Shown: one piece after another, positions 1-54,004 of the stretch | Numbering within the stretch: the stretch's first letter is position 1 | How the letters are laid out: every line of letters starts with the position of its first letter | DNA from: Falsiroseomonas oleicola | GTDB taxonomy: Bacteria; Pseudomonadota; Alphaproteobacteria; Acetobacterales; Acetobacteraceae | Direction of reading: 5' to 3' | DNA length: 64,000 nucleotides | Assembly (NCBI RefSeq): GCF_019029495.1 | Contig: NZ_JAERQM010000007.1 | Coordinates: 228,180-292,179 of the forward strand | Position numbers and translations under genes: made by a program | Notes under the pieces: generated by a model | Databases searched by the model: none | What the model was told of the DNA's origin: nothing | The model's input: the letters and a program-made list of their open reading frames with translations, nothing else

Positions 1-287
1 GGCGTGCGCTGCCGGCCTAGGAATCGGCGCCGAGTTGGTGGAGCTGCCCGACCTGGTGGCGTGCCCTGCCGGCCTCGGGGCCGGTGCTGGGCTGGTGGAG
101 CCGCGCGCCCTGGTGGCGTGCGCTGCCGGCCCGGGGATCGGCGCCGAGTTGGTGGAGCTGCTCGACCTGGTGGCGTGCGCTGCCGGCCTCGGGGCCGGCG
201 CTGGGCTGGTGAAGCTGCGCGCCCTGGTGGGGCGTGCGCTGCCAGCCTTGGGGCGGGCGCCGAGCTGGTGGAGCCGCGCGCCCTGGT
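1..287. repeat. 57-bp tandem repeat (minisatellite), five units
   Basis: Five head-to-tail units start at about 1, 58, 115, 172 and 231, each beginning GGCGTGC or a variant. The period is 57 bp (19 codons), except unit 4, which carries two extra G and is 59 bp. Units alternate between two versions, one with a GGCGCCGAGTTGG core and one with a GGGGCCGGTGCTGG core, so a 114-bp higher-order period is visible. Frame 2 is open across the first four units and would encode 19-residue repeats of the style ACAAGLGxGAxLVExxxLV. The GG insertion breaks that frame. The array may continue left of the window, so it could be the 3' end of a repeat protein or non-coding. Confidence 0.85.
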
Positions 288-647
288 GGAGGGGCTGGCG
301 CTGATCTGGTGGACATTCGCGCGCCCCCCCCGCCACCCCCTCACCCCCCACTCCCGGGAATGTTCGCGCCCTTACCTGTGCGCCTGTGCGCACGGAGACT
401 ATGAAAATTCCGGAGGATTTGCCTTTGTGGCCGAAGCCGGACCCGCCCACCTAGGGCGTGCAGCGGATCGCGTTTCGCAATTGCAGCTCACGCGGGAGCG
501 CGACCATTCAGAGCGCTACCAAACCTAGGGCGACAGGCTGCGACAGGGCGCGGCCCCTCAGCCAGAGAACGACGCCGTGTGGTTGCACCATGGTTGCACT
601 TGAAATGAAGCCGCCAGCTCCGATTGCTCGGAAGCCGGCGGAAAACT
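288..647. other. Gene-poor stretch between minisatellite and tRNA-Ala
   Basis: No protein family is recognisable here. The stretch holds a C-rich tract (about 325-355) and a possible 17-codon ORF at 401-454 (MKIPEDLPLWPKPDPPT) preceded by ACGGAGACT, which is a plausible ribosome binding site. It also has a short direct repeat GGTTGCAC at about 581 and 593. Read on the minus strand, a bulged hairpin at about 611-641 (TCCGA-GCAA-TCGGA core) lies just beyond the tRNA 3' end and could terminate the tRNA transcript, but the T tract is poor. Confidence 0.4.
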
Positions 648-4747: not shown

Positions 4748-7066
4748 ATGCGTTTTCTCCTGGACTTGTCAGTAAGCCGAAAATTGGCGGCCTCCGCCGC
4801 CCTTGCCTTGTTGATGATCGTCGGGCTCGTGGCGATGACTTGGCGCGAAACCTCCCAGATCATCGCCCAGCAATCCGTCGCGGCGCGGGTGCAGACCGCA
4901 ATGGATGCCATGGACAACGGCATCGAGCGCCTCATGGACGTGGCGGTCATGGAACGCGACCTGCTGCTGACCCATGATGAGGCGGGCCAGGCGCCGGCCT
5001 GGCAGGCGATCGAGAATGCGATCGCCCAGGGTTCGACGGCGGCCCGCGACGCGGCCGCGGGTTCCGGCGATCCACGGCTGATGGAGGGGGCAACGGCCCT
5101 GGCTGATGCGGCCGAGCGCTATCGCGAGGCACTGCGCAAGGTGGCGGAACAGCGCGCGCTGATGGTCGTGGCCCGTGACCGCGAGTTGTTCCCGCTCTCC
5201 GGCGAATATGACTCCCTGTACGAGGCGGTGTCCGCCAGCTTCGGCTTCGACCTGCCCGCCGACCAGCAGGACGACGCCCGTTACCGTCTGCAGACGGTGC
5301 ATAACGCGGTGGGCGAGGTGCGGATCGGCGTGCAGCGGCTGCTGGCGACGGGCGACGAGGCGCAGAACCGCCGCGTGCGGCGTGGCATCGCCCAGGCCCG
5401 GGTGCATAGCCGCGGGTTGCTGTCGGTCGAGGCGCCGGCACGGCTGAAGGAGGATGTGGGCCGCCTGGCCGAGCGCGCCCAGGCCATCGGCCTCGCGGCT
5501 GGCAAGATCCTCGATGCCGGTGAGGAAGTGGCCAAGCTGCGGCGCGATGAGGTGACGCCGGCGCGCGAGGCGCTGGAACAGGCGGCGCACGGCCTTTCCA
5601 GCGCCGGCCTGGCGCTGGCCGGAACCCAGCGCGAACAGGTGCAGCACCGTGCGGAACTTGTGCGCAGCACGGCCATGTGGTCCGGCGTCGCCATCGCCCT
5701 GGTGCTGCTGCTGTCTTCCTTCGCCATGGCGCGCGGCATCGGCGCCCCGATGCGCCGCCTTTCCGCCGTGATGGCCCGCATCGCCGGCGGCCAATCCGAC
5801 ATCGCCGTGCCCGATCGCGGCCGCCGCGACGAGATCGGCGCGATGGCGGAGGCCCTGGAAGGCCTGCGCAGCACCGTGGACCGCGCCTTCTCCCAGGGCC
5901 AGATGATCGAGCAATTGCCGGCGGCGGTGATGAGCGCCGATCCGAAGAACGGCTTCCGCATGACCTATATGAATGCGGAAAGCACCCGCCTGCTGACCCA
6001 GCTCCGCAAGCTGCTGCCCTGCGGGCCGGAGGAGATGATCGGCCAGCCGATCGACATCTTCCACAGGGATGCGGCGCATCAGATGGACATCCTGTCCGAC
6101 CCGGCGCGCCTGCCGCATACCGCCCGCATCAAGCTGGGCAACGAGGTGCTGGAACTGCGGGTCTCCGCCATCCGCGACGCAGCCGGGGCCTATGCCGCCA
6201 CCATGCTGACCTGGACCCTGGCGACCGAGCAGGTGCGCCTGGCCGATACCTTCGAGAGCGAGGTCGGCGCCGTGGTCGCCGCCGTGGCGGAATCGGCCGC
6301 GCGCCTGCAACAGTCGGCGGAGGAACTCTCCGGCACCGCCCAGACCTCCGGGCGCGAAGCCGCCGCGGTGGCCGCGGCCGGTGGCCGGGCGCAGGGCGAT
6401 GTGCAGGCTGTGGCGGCGGCGGCCGAGGAGATGGCCAGCTCCGTCACCGAGATCGCCCGCCAGGTGGGCGAGGCCGCGCAGGTCGCCAGCCGCGCGGTGG
6501 AGGAAGCCCGGGCGACCGACGCCACCGTGCAGGGCCTTTCCGAGGCCGCGGCCCGCATCGGCGACGTGGTCCGCCTGATCGGCGACATCGCCGGCCAGAC
6601 CAACCTCCTGGCCCTGAACGCGACCATCGAGGCGGCGCGGGCCGGCGAGGCCGGGAAGGGCTTCGCCGTGGTCGCCAGCGAGGTGAAGTCGCTGGCCGGC
6701 CAGACCGCCAAGGCGACGGAGGAGATCGCGGCCCAGATCGGCCAGATGCAGCAGGCCACGACCCAGGCGGTGACCGCCATTCGCGGCATCGGCGCCACGG
6801 TCGAGCGCACCAGCGAGATCGCCACGGCCATCGCCGCGGCGGTGGAGGAACAGGGCGCCGCGACGCAGGAGATCGCGCGCAGCGCCTCCCAGGTCGCGGA
6901 TGCCACCCAGACGGTGGCCCAGCGCATCGAGGGTGTGCGCGGCGCGGCGGAAGCGACCGGCGAAGCGGCGGGGACCATGCGCGACGACAGCGGCGCCCTG
7001 GCCGGCCAGGCCCGGCAGTTGCAGGAAAAGACCGACAACTTCCTGCGCGCCGTGCGGGCCATCTGA
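4748..7066 (+). CDS. Methyl-accepting chemotaxis protein with HAMP and PAS-like domains
   Basis: 772-residue transmembrane chemoreceptor. Visible order: N-terminal TM (about 13-31); a long helical periplasmic or sensory part (32-305); second TM (about 309-328, [20 protein letters not shown]); HAMP (about 329-380, with [11 protein letters not shown]); a PAS-like segment (about 386-500, from [14 protein letters not shown]); and the C-terminal signalling bundle with the conserved hairpin tip [20 protein letters not shown] near residue 610. It ends NFLRAVRAI without an NWETF-type CheR/CheB tether. It would relay an unknown signal to CheA through CheW. No che genes are in the window, although flagellar genes lie at its right end. 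Confidence 0.93.
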
Positions 7067-7076
7067 TGGCAGCGGG

Positions 7077-7205
7077 CCGGTCTCTTGACCGGTCCGAGCG
7101 CCCGAATGGGCGCCGCGGCTTATGCCGCGAAGCCAAGGAAACCGGAGGTTTCCGCCCGGCGTCTGAGGGCGGCCCGGAGCGGTTACGCGGAAGGGCCGTT
7201 GGTAT
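7077..7205. repeat. 129-bp multi-hairpin repeat element, copy 1
   Basis: About 95% identical (123/129) to the copy at 52888-53016 and of exactly the same length. It folds into consecutive hairpins: CCGGTC-TCTT-GACCGG, GCGCCC-GAAT-GGGCGC, CGCGGC-TTAT-GCCGCG, GGAAACC-GGA-GGTTTCC, CCGCCC/GGGCGG, and a final CCC/GGG stem enclosing GCG-GTTA-CGC. All six differences between copies fall in loops or unpaired bases. Both copies sit directly after a plus-strand stop codon. The right end of this copy creates TGGTATAAT, a perfect extended -10. I do not recognise a named RNA family. Confidence 0.85.
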
Positions 7206-7239
7206 AATACACCCGCCCCGGCGCTTGCCGGGGCGGGTG
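7203..7239 (+). promoter_or_regulatory. Extended -10 plus strong hairpin ahead of the Asd-like gene
   Basis: TATAAT (7203-7208), preceded by TGG (extended -10), with no good -35 at the correct spacing. It is followed immediately by a perfect 12-bp stem CACCCGCCCCGG (7210-7221) / CCGGGGCGGGTG (7228-7239). Transcripts starting here would carry the hairpin at their 5' end. Alternatively, the hairpin may simply end transcription from the chemoreceptor, although no T tract follows. Confidence 0.45.
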
Positions 7240-52230: not shown

Positions 52231-52863
52231 ATGTCCGTCACCCCGAAGACCCGTGGCCGCCACCATCACGGCGACCTGCGTCGCGCCCTGCTGGATGCGG
52301 TGGCGGAGATCGTCCAGGAATCGGGGCCGGAGGCGGTCTCCCTGCGCGAATGCGCCCGCCGCGCCGGCGTCTCCCATTCCGCCGCCACGCCCCATTTCGG
52401 CGACAAGCGCGGGTTGATGACGGCCTTCGCCACGGAGAAATCGCTGCGCCTGCGCGCCGCGATGGAGGACGCGCTGGCCGCCCTGCCGCCCGGGGCCAGC
52501 CCGGCCGAGCGCCTGGCGGCCACCGGGCGCGGCTACATGGCCTTCGCGCGCCAGAACCCCGCGCATTTCCGGCTGATGTTCCGCACCGACCTGATCGACC
52601 CCGAGGACCCGGCCTGGTCCGAGGCCGCGCGCCGCGCGCGGGAACCGCTGGACGCGGCGATGCAGGCGGTCGCGCCGGCCGCCGACGCCCGCGCCCTGCG
52701 CGCGCGCATCGCTTTGGCCTGGGCCGGGGTGCATGGCTTCTGCACCCTGCGGGCGGAGGCCCCGCGCAGCGACCTCTGGCATCCCGAACCGCGCGGCGCG
52801 GAGGTGGAGGCCGATCTGCTCGCCTTGCTCGTCGCCGCCTGCCTGCCACCGGGTCCGGGGTGA
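52231..52863 (+). CDS. TetR/AcrR family transcriptional regulator
   Basis: 210 residues from MSVTPKTRGRHHHGDLRRALLDAV; the upstream Met at 52195 lies in the operator region. HTH at about 30-60 (SLRECARRAGVSHSAATPHFGDKRGL). The C-terminal ligand domain has GRGYMAFARQNPAHFRLMFRTDL, typical of the TetR_C_33/WHG-type group. Divergent from the ABA4-like operon and followed directly by repeat copy 2. It probably represses itself and the membrane pair; the effector is unknown. Confidence 0.92.
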   Translation: MSVTPKTRGRHHHGDLRRALLDAVAEIVQESGPEAVSLRECARRAGVSHSAATPHFGDKRGLMTAFATEKSLRLRAAMEDALAALPPGASPAERLAATGRGYMAFARQNPAHFRLMFRTDLIDPEDPAWSEAARRAREPLDAAMQAVAPAADARALRARIALAWAGVHGFCTLRAEAPRSDLWHPEPRGAEVEADLLALLVAACLPPGPG

Positions 52864-52887
52864 GAACGGCCGGCTGATATCGGCGGA

Positions 52888-53016
52888 CCGGTCTCTTGAC
52901 CGGTCCGAGCGCCCGAACGGGCGCCGCGGCTTATGCCGCGAAGCCAAGGAAACCGTAGGTTTCCGCCCGGCGTTTGAGGGCGGCCCGGAGCGGTCACGCG
53001 ATAGGGCCGTTGGTAT
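52888..53016. repeat. 129-bp multi-hairpin repeat element, copy 2
   Basis: Same orientation and length as 7077-7205, with six substitutions. The stems CCGGTC/GACCGG, GCGCCC/GGGCGC, CGCGGC/GCCGCG, GGAAACC/GGTTTCC and CCGCCC/GGGCGG are all unchanged. It starts 24 bp after the TetR stop. Its right end supplies the stop codon and last ~7 codons of the convergent MerR gene. Confidence 0.85.
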
Positions 53017-54004
53017 GAGCCGCCTCCGGCCGCCGGGCCACCACCCCCTCGGTCCGCGCCCGCACCTCCGGCGGGGCGAGGCAGGTCGCCACGGACTCAT
53101 GGCCCGGGGTGCCGGGGAAGGCCAAAACCTCGCGCGGCGGGCTGTGATTGGCGGGGCAGAGCAGGAGGGCCTCGCCTGGCCCCACCGCCTCCAGATCCAG
53201 CATGGCGCTCGATCGGGTCATCAGGAACAGCGGCCGCTCGGCCCGTGCGGTGCGGCGCAGATGCGCGGCCAGCGCCATCTGCGTCGCCTCGTCCAGCCCC
53301 TGTTCCACCATGTCGACGACCAGCGTGGCGGGTGCCTCCAGCGCCGCCAGCAGGGCGCGGAGCGCGGGCGAATCGCTGGCGCCCTCCTCGACCAGCCAGG
53401 CGAGGGCCGCCGCGATCCGCGCGGGATCAGCCTCCGCCACCCGCCGGTCGAGTCCCAGGAAGACCGCGCCGGGCACGGCCTCCGCCAGTCGCATCGCCAG
53501 CCTTGTCTTGCCGCTGCCCAGCGGGCCGATGATCCAGGTCAGCGGCCGGGCGGCGGGCCATTCGAAGGCCTCGCCGCCCCAGGGCCAGGGCAGGTCGAAG
53601 CGGATCGGCGGGGCCTGGGGCGCCAGCAGCGCCGCCACCTTGCCCGCACTCGGCACCCGCCCCTGGGCCAGCTCCGCCCGCAGCGCGCCGAGCCGGCCCA
53701 CCGATTCGGCCAGCACGCCGATCCGCGCCTCCACCACCCGCTGATGCGCCGCCAGCGCCGGTTCCAGCCCGGCCGGATCGCCGCCCAGCACGCGCGCCAC
53801 CTGCGCGAGACTCAGGCCGAGGCCGCGCAGCGCCACCACCTCCACCGCGCGGGCCATCTCGGCGGGGCCATAGGCGCGCCAGCCGGCGGCGGAACGTGCC
53901 GGCCGGATCAGCCCGCGCTGCTCATACAGCCGCAGCGCCTTGGCGGAGACACCCAGCCGGCGCGCGGCCTCGGCGGGGTTGAGAAAGCGGTCGGACGGAC
54001 TCAT
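52994..54004 (-). CDS. MerR-type HTH regulator fused to a P-loop ATPase domain
   Basis: 336 residues. N-terminal MerR winged helix (about 8-75: LNPAEAARRLGVSAKALRLYEQRGLIRP, GWRAYGPAEMARAVEVVALRGLGLSL), then a helical linker (about 80-125). The ATPase domain has Walker A IIGPLGSGKTRLAMRL (about 158-173) and a Walker-B-like ATLVVDMVEQGLD (about 225-240), then RTARAERPLFLMTRS. MerR proteins normally end in a short effector domain, so an NTPase output is atypical. Its last residues (TNGPIA) and stop codon lie inside repeat copy 2. Effector and target unknown. Confidence 0.87.
   Translation of the reverse strand: MSPSDRFLNPAEAARRLGVSAKALRLYEQRGLIRPARSAAGWRAYGPAEMARAVEVVALRGLGLSLAQVARVLGGDPAGLEPALAAHQRVVEARIGVLAESVGRLGALRAELAQGRVPSAGKVAALLAPQAPPIRFDLPWPWGGEAFEWPAARPLTWIIGPLGSGKTRLAMRLAEAVPGAVFLGLDRRVAEADPARIAAALAWLVEEGASDSPALRALLAALEAPATLVVDMVEQGLDEATQMALAAHLRRTARAERPLFLMTRSSAMLDLEAVGPGEALLLCPANHSPPREVLAFPGTPGHESVATCLAPPEVRARTEGVVARRPEAAHTNGPIA

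Follow-up and report, generated by a model that had tools for sequence, protein, structure and literature searches.

A hairpin-carrying, MITE-like repeat in Falsiroseomonas oleicola and its probable mobilisation by IS630-type transposases

IS630 elements are known for a 2-bp TA target duplication. For IS1031-type IS5 elements, the duplication is 3 bp and has the sequence TNA. The passages on RUP in PMC3049150 describe a 107 bp non-coding repeat of Streptococcus pneumoniae whose terminal inverted repeats resemble the ends of IS630-Spn1. Movement of RUP in trans was proposed and its density peaks 50–150 bp from genes. The passages of the same article on BOX, from the same organism, describe a modular repeat whose copies overlap the very 3' ends of genes and supply the stop codon of 36 CDSs. 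The GTAG and CGTC REPs are intergenic palindromes of 20–40 bp. In the portions of PMC3733652 that deal with them, GTAG families are tied to Y1 transposases and the ends of GTAG REPs frequently contribute a TAG stop codon. The main text of a 2024 review of prokaryote MITEs contains neither 'IS630' nor 'stop codon' (PMC10969869).

Here, we describe a repeat that occurs twice in a 64,000-nucleotide stretch of the Falsiroseomonas oleicola genome (hereafter 'the window'). No published description of the element was found in the open-access literature searched, which included passages of PMC12306157 and PMC10969869. An initial annotation, made from the DNA letters, had offered three readings: an mRNA 3'-end element, a structured RNA or a mobile REP-like unit. 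Mobility was the right choice, in the form of a MITE-like unit with inverted ends, a 3-bp target duplication and IS630-type ends. We consider it very likely that both are copies of a non-autonomous, MITE-like unit that is probably mobilised by IS630-type transposases, inserts at TNA and carries hairpins as a DNA-level cargo. We favour this reading because of the element ends, the TNA duplication, empty sites in relatives, an inverted copy in one of them and an IS630-family insertion sequence (IS) with the same ends.

Extent and fold of the two window copies

The copies were initially placed at positions 7077–7205 and 52888–53016. Both are present, each of 129 nt, with six mismatches between them. 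These boundaries proved too narrow: the real elements span 7067–7204 and 52878–53015 and are 138 bp each. All six differences between the copies occupy unpaired positions of the predicted fold. Because 35% of the fold is unpaired, the chance of this is ~0.0018. The claim that no stem base changes is accurate for the window pair but fails family-wide, where stems often change, in compensating pairs. The plus strand folds strongly in both copies (−73.4 kcal/mol; z scores of −3.4 and −4.3) and the minus strand of both gives −65.8 kcal/mol (z of about −3.6). There is no third good copy in the window; the next score with covariance model R1 is 20.1 bits, compared with 98.5 and 95.0. Both copies had also been said to lie immediately after a stop codon. 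For copy 1 this is exact. Copy 2, instead, begins 14 bp past the stop of a TetR-like gene (52861–52863), at a TGA that is not the stop of that gene. The features are as follows.

7064–7066, plus strand: left 3-bp target duplication of copy 1 (TGA), which is the chemoreceptor stop codon
7067–7075, plus strand: 5' terminal inverted repeat of copy 1, TGGCAGCGG (family consensus TACCARCGG)
7067–7204, plus strand: entire element, copy 1, 138 bp; the orthologous site is empty in most relatives
7077–7092, plus strand: hairpin P1, CCGGTC TCTT GACCGG, from the fold; sequence variable in other copies
7094–7169, plus strand: conserved core of copy 1 (P2, P3, AAGCCAAG, P4 and P5), from covariance model R1 (98.5 bits)
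7098–7113, plus strand: hairpin P2, GCGCCC GAAT GGGCGC, from the fold and the covariation alignment
7114–7129, plus strand: hairpin P3, CGCGGC TTAT GCCGCG, from the fold and the covariation alignment
7137–7153, plus strand: hairpin P4, GGAAACC GGA GGTTTCC; the stem is free and the loop mostly GGA or GGA(T/G/C)
7154–7170, plus strand: hairpin P5, GCCC GGCGTCTGA GGGC, from the fold and the covariation alignment
7171–7197, plus strand: hairpin P6, GGCCC...GGGCC, from the fold; another hairpin stands here in some copies
7196–7204, plus strand: 3' terminal inverted repeat of copy 1, CCGTTGGTA
7205–7207, plus strand: right target duplication of copy 1, TAA, one transition away from TGA
52875–52877, plus strand: left target duplication of copy 2, TGA
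52878–53015, plus strand: entire element, copy 2, 138 bp, with 5' end TATCGGCGG and 3' end CCGTTGGTA
52905–52980, plus strand: conserved core of copy 2, from covariance model R1 (95.0 bits)
53016–53018, plus strand: right target duplication of copy 2, TGA

A minus-strand MerR-like ORF (52994–54004) runs into the right end of copy 2 (52994–53015), which would give the ORF its last residues and its stop codon. At the left edge of the window (1–289) is a minisatellite-like array of five tandem 57–59 bp units.

Ends, landing sites and the candidate mover

Aligned copies have the common ends TACCARCGG and CCGYTGGTA, which lie outside the coordinates of the initial annotation. We compared the 3-bp flanks of 36 copies with both ends, taken from the host genome, the genus and, for two copies, G029 (another genus of the same family). 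The flanks were identical in 12 of these, a set with some poor end matches (e.g. L015, L035, L041, L170), against 5.4 when right flanks were permuted among copies (p 0.001). TNA was found on both sides of 20 of the 36 copies. Flanks were identical in 12 of the 20, and 7 of the remaining 8 differ by one transition. In the window, the flanks are TGA/TAA for copy 1 and TGA/TGA for copy 2. A broader set comprised 162 cores from further loci, 20 of them with both ends. Identical flanks were present in 11 of these 20 (shuffles 4.3, p 0.0002), one of the 11 being TTG/TTG; the sole host-genome copy among the 20, L306, is outside the 11. For the 162 cores as a whole, TACCR was found upstream of 39 (22.8 in shuffles) and YGGTA downstream of 44 (20.6 in shuffles). 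With terminal inverted repeats and a target-site duplication, the element has the form of a MITE. It is also short (138 bp), multi-copy and non-coding, with no transposase gene inside.

Small relatives of the element ends were seen too. A tiny palindrome at L204 (1501–1537), with TCA/TGA flanks, joins two element ends in a back-to-back arrangement (TACCAACGGTCGATGAAATCGACCGTTGGTA); it is a minimal relative that lacks a core altogether. Similar end-to-end palindromes adjoin the L011, L022 and L038 copies.

The site of copy 1, between the chemoreceptor gene and asd, could be read in 13 of 14 same-genus relatives (G004 has no orthologue). For 11 of the 13, there is a stop codon and no element (G001, G002, G003, G005, G006, G008, G009, G010, G011, G013 and G014). 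In G012, the site is occupied by an element that contains nested hairpins (CTGTAA[element]TAGCCCG); the corresponding sequence of G005 is CTGTAGCCCG. In G007, a degenerate copy with TGA/TGA flanks lies in the inverted orientation at the same stop codon. At a second site, the stop codon of an aldolase gene, the host genome reads TGA[element]TAA. The element is missing from all 14 relatives here (57 bases past the stop codon), and in G002 and G007, which are 94% identical in the aldolase gene, the TGA is bare. Neither empty site, asd or aldolase, has any extra TA. As comparisons between species, these empty orthologous sites are evidence of insertion. Taken with the identity of the flanks, the two sites suggest that the junction is TNA followed by TACC.

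Stop codons are frequent landing sites. Among 33 copies no longer than 200 bp for which both ends were located (again with two G029 copies and some poor end matches), 22 abut a gene's own stop codon. The element starts right after the stop of the upstream gene in 14 cases and ends at the stop of an opposite-strand gene in 8. The genes were called with a codon-usage finder, which missed some, for example beside L004 and L014. In the window, stop codons make up 38 of 250 non-coding TNA sites, so that ~5 of 33 would be expected (binomial 3e-11). The stop codons TAA and TGA, and their complements TTA and TCA, fit TNA. Hence, the duplication preserves the stop codon. The excess at stop codons beyond TNA may reflect a target preference or the loss of harmful insertions.

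The host genome contains one 1170-bp element (G000:C2:4433-5602) that reads TGA-TACCAACGGCAT...ATGCCGTCGGTA-TGA and has an interrupted transposase frame. A piece of this frame matches Pfam HTH_29 and HTH_32; the IS630 model NF033545 is below cut-off. In a related IS of G010, the second piece matches NF033545 above cut-off and also DDE_3. The host IS and the MITE have ~9–10 terminal bases in common and no more. A sister species, G003, has a multi-copy related IS with ends TACCAGCGCCC...GAGGGCGTTGGTA. All 20 fetched flanks of this IS are TNA (8 left and 12 right); the frequency of TNA in the window is 2%. The ends of the G003 IS fall at contig breaks and, hence, the left and right flanks of one insertion cannot be paired.

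Ends in common with an IS that encodes an apparent IS630-family transposase mark the element as putatively IS630-derived. It behaves like an IS630 MITE yet departs from the TA rule: in place of a 2-bp TA duplication, the flanks read TNA-TACC...GGTA-TNA. Because the ends and the target are held in common, as for RUP and IS630-Spn1 (RUP passages of PMC3049150), the element is probably mobilised in trans by IS630-type transposases. Other candidates were set aside. The TNA target of IS1031 made IS5-type DUF4096 transposases candidates as well; none of the three host hits is bracketed by TACC...GGTA ends. Two IS630 genes of G010 (L237 and L249) have no TACC...GGTA end pair either.

Some core units lack TACC ends. 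They were seen in Sphingomonadales, where an A-rich stretch often comes next, and in the host genome, where some are tandem. Therefore, IS630 ends cannot account for every copy. Core-only units of the host were seen between close genes (L387, L389, L396, L399, L405, L407 and L409). Some of them form tandem pairs. In most units P1 differs (GCGGCCGGC...GCCGGCC), and TACC ends are absent.

REP or BIME-type repeats moved by a RAYT (Y1) transposase share with the element a high copy number, an intergenic location and the capacity to form hairpins. However, a search for PF01797 (Y1) found none in the host genome, the control being positive in 5 of 14 genomes. The element also has inverted ends and a target duplication and, at 138 bp, is far longer than a single 20–40 bp palindrome. 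Furthermore, CGTC REPs are reported missing in Acetobacteraceae, in the portion of PMC3733652 that covers them. We consider a REP origin most improbable, and the REP-like label of the initial annotation to be wrong.

The dispersed family and its hairpin core

The host genome has at least 45 BLAST matches to the window copy (40 of 131 candidates were scored). An exact pattern for the P4–P5 half-core occurs at 58 places in the host genome and the reversed control pattern at none. Matches were found in all 14 other genomes of the genus, in 2 of 20 from the family's other genera and in 2 of 24 from the rest of the class. A scan of named genomes for the core pattern returned at least 118 stretches. 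Among the 80 matches listed of these, all titles that name a group are alphaproteobacterial, one giving only 'Proteobacteria'. The groups among the matches listed include Falsiroseomonas, Neoroseomonas, Roseococcus, Nitrospirillum, Azospirillum, Magnetospirillum, Telmatospirillum, Erythrobacteraceae, Sphingomonas and Micavibrio. In a class-wide draw with strict filters, model R1 matched in 15 of 192 genomes and 14 of 168 genera, host included. The element had no match in a plasmid collection. The exact core pattern was seen in 27 stretches of IMG/VR viral contigs (L356–L382); hence, prophages or adjacent host DNA may harbour the element. The further copies that the initial annotation proposed to look for, in the host genome and its relatives, are thus numerous.

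The P2–P5 architecture is conserved among copies. We identified 144 distinct core copies, of which 126 have at least five contiguous P4 pairs; the P4 stems of these 126 take 45 different sequences. In the host genome, 53 of 58 P4 stems are fully Watson–Crick and these 53 have 15 different sequences. An alignment (A1) of 39 of 40 listed rows, with L196 left out, has 95.1% of cells paired and a covariation score of 0.420. The controls gave at most 0.055 when partners were slid and 0.099 in shuffles. Two-sided change, one of five measures in the test, was found for 11 pairs and was not clearly higher than in shuffles (9.5; 71/500). The rows were picked for pairing of P2 and P3 and, therefore, only the covariation of P4 is unselected. 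The core has covarying base pairs, as a structured RNA would, and the initial expectation of such pairs was borne out. Rfam has no match to the element at gathering or relaxed thresholds, nor any for the element in 17 related loci; the initial annotation likewise did not recognise a named family.

The loops of P4 vary little. Among 196 counted, GGAT occurs 76 times, GGA 75, GGAG 12, GGAC 11 and GGAA once; the closing pair is C-G in 188 of 196. Nested 30-bp palindromes (GTCRYGCC...GGCRYGAC) occur in some copies, ahead of AAGCC and within the loop of P5. Perfect or near-perfect examples at these two core places were seen in L014, L018, L027, L028, L207 and L224. The last hairpin is swapped for another in L016, L017 and L026.

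An alternative is that the core is a structured RNA in the 3' UTR (a stabiliser, terminator or sRNA), with spread by mobile ends secondary. The strong covariation and the location adjoining gene ends would fit this, as would the plus-strand free energy, which is better than that of the minus strand. The unpaired AAGCCAAG and the P5 loop are invariant, though this constancy is largely forced by the search patterns, which fix their own letters. Orientation argues against such an RNA: of 100 named-locus copies, 34 are tandem against transcription, 27 tandem with it, 26 convergent, 5 divergent and 8 undecided. For the host genome (n=30), 17 copies are convergent, 8 with, 3 against and 2 divergent; in this small sample, 8 with versus 3 against hints at an orientation preference. 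Wobble pairs, a weak test, are few. The 1277 pair cells of P4 contain 12 G-T and 5 A-C; for P3 the counts are 3 and 5 and for P2, which is partly misregistered, 2 and 20. Thus, neither orientation nor G-U asymmetry singles out one functional strand.

The P4 loops bear on the same choice. RNA GNRA loops end in A, an ending that P4 shuns (GGAA in 1 of 196). DNA tetraloops of the form GNAB, where B is C, G or T, are reported to be stable (the passage of PMC8373063 that cites Nakano 2002). In the region of copy 1, no T-run follows the hairpin, which rules out an intrinsic terminator role for this copy. A Shine–Dalgarno role for the GAGGG of P5 at tandem sites was dropped because orientation is balanced. 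The balanced orientation, the lack of a clear G-T excess over A-C and the GNAB-type loops lead us to favour DNA. We have moderate confidence that the hairpin core is a structure at the DNA level and not a 3'-UTR RNA. With no Rfam match either, we regard the RNA account as unlikely. The structured-RNA or mRNA 3'-end reading of the initial annotation is therefore unsupported as the main explanation.

A DNA-level structure need not be under selection. The paired stem changes might arise by template switching during replication, with the hairpins a passive cargo. Such switching is reported to generate stems and to mend them (PMC8794818). The stems are perfect with few intermediates, as the host P4 stems illustrate, which fits such a process. 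Conversely, the P4 loops are near-constant over many genera though the stems vary, which suggests a constraint beyond matching of the arms; the constant linkers mostly follow from the search pattern itself. Since template switching can make and mend stems, the hairpins may be either selected or merely copied. We rate unselected template switching as possible, though below even chances.

The near-constant C-GGA-G and C-GGA(T/G/C)-G loops, the freely varying stems and the nested palindromes are the basis of a further, tentative suggestion. The hairpins could be a class-wide alphaproteobacterial cargo, under selection to fold as cruciform or single-stranded DNA and carried inside IS630-type ends, with safe landing on stop codons built in by TNA. 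If so, copies without IS630-type ends would imply a second mode of spread.

A model for spread and comparison with described repeats

We propose that an IS630-family transposase, acting in trans, would recognise TACCARCGG...CCGYTGGTA and excise or copy the element. Insertion would occur at a TNA trinucleotide, which would be duplicated. Landing on a stop codon would duplicate the stop and leave the gene product unchanged. Duplication of stop codons, together with the purging of harmful insertions, could then leave most located copies on stop codons. The cargo is a chain of small hairpins, common across Alphaproteobacteria, in which paired changes keep the palindromes intact. The most likely reason is that the chain functions, or is copied, in the form of folded DNA, and a strand-specific RNA role is less likely.

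Duplicating the stop codon landed on would be a simple way for a mobile element to fill a compact genome with its genes unbroken. The family also provides hundreds of natural hairpins whose loops hardly vary and whose stems are free, a collection that might allow selection for DNA folding to be distinguished from template switching during replication. It further calls for caution: paired stem changes in intergenic repeats do not, on their own, prove a functional RNA.

The element resembles several described systems in part. A TNA target and a 3-bp duplication are in common with IS1031-type IS5 elements. Unlike these, the IS with the ends of the present element belongs to the IS630 family by HMM. 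The GTAG and CGTC REPs are likewise palindromic and intergenic and, for GTAG REPs, the ends can likewise contribute to stop codons; they differ in being single short palindromes, with GTAG families tied to Y1 transposases, none of which was found in the host genome. BOX is likewise modular and placed at the extreme 3' ends of genes. The present element differs in that its stop codon is copied by target duplication, a distinction drawn from the description of BOX. RUP is a further parallel: it is also a short non-coding repeat, its terminal inverted repeats resemble those of an IS630-family IS, and its movement in trans has been proposed. Whereas RUP density peaks some way from genes, 22 of 33 copies of the present element abut a stop codon. 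Also unlike RUP, the present element has a 3-bp TNA duplication and a body that is a chain of covarying hairpins.
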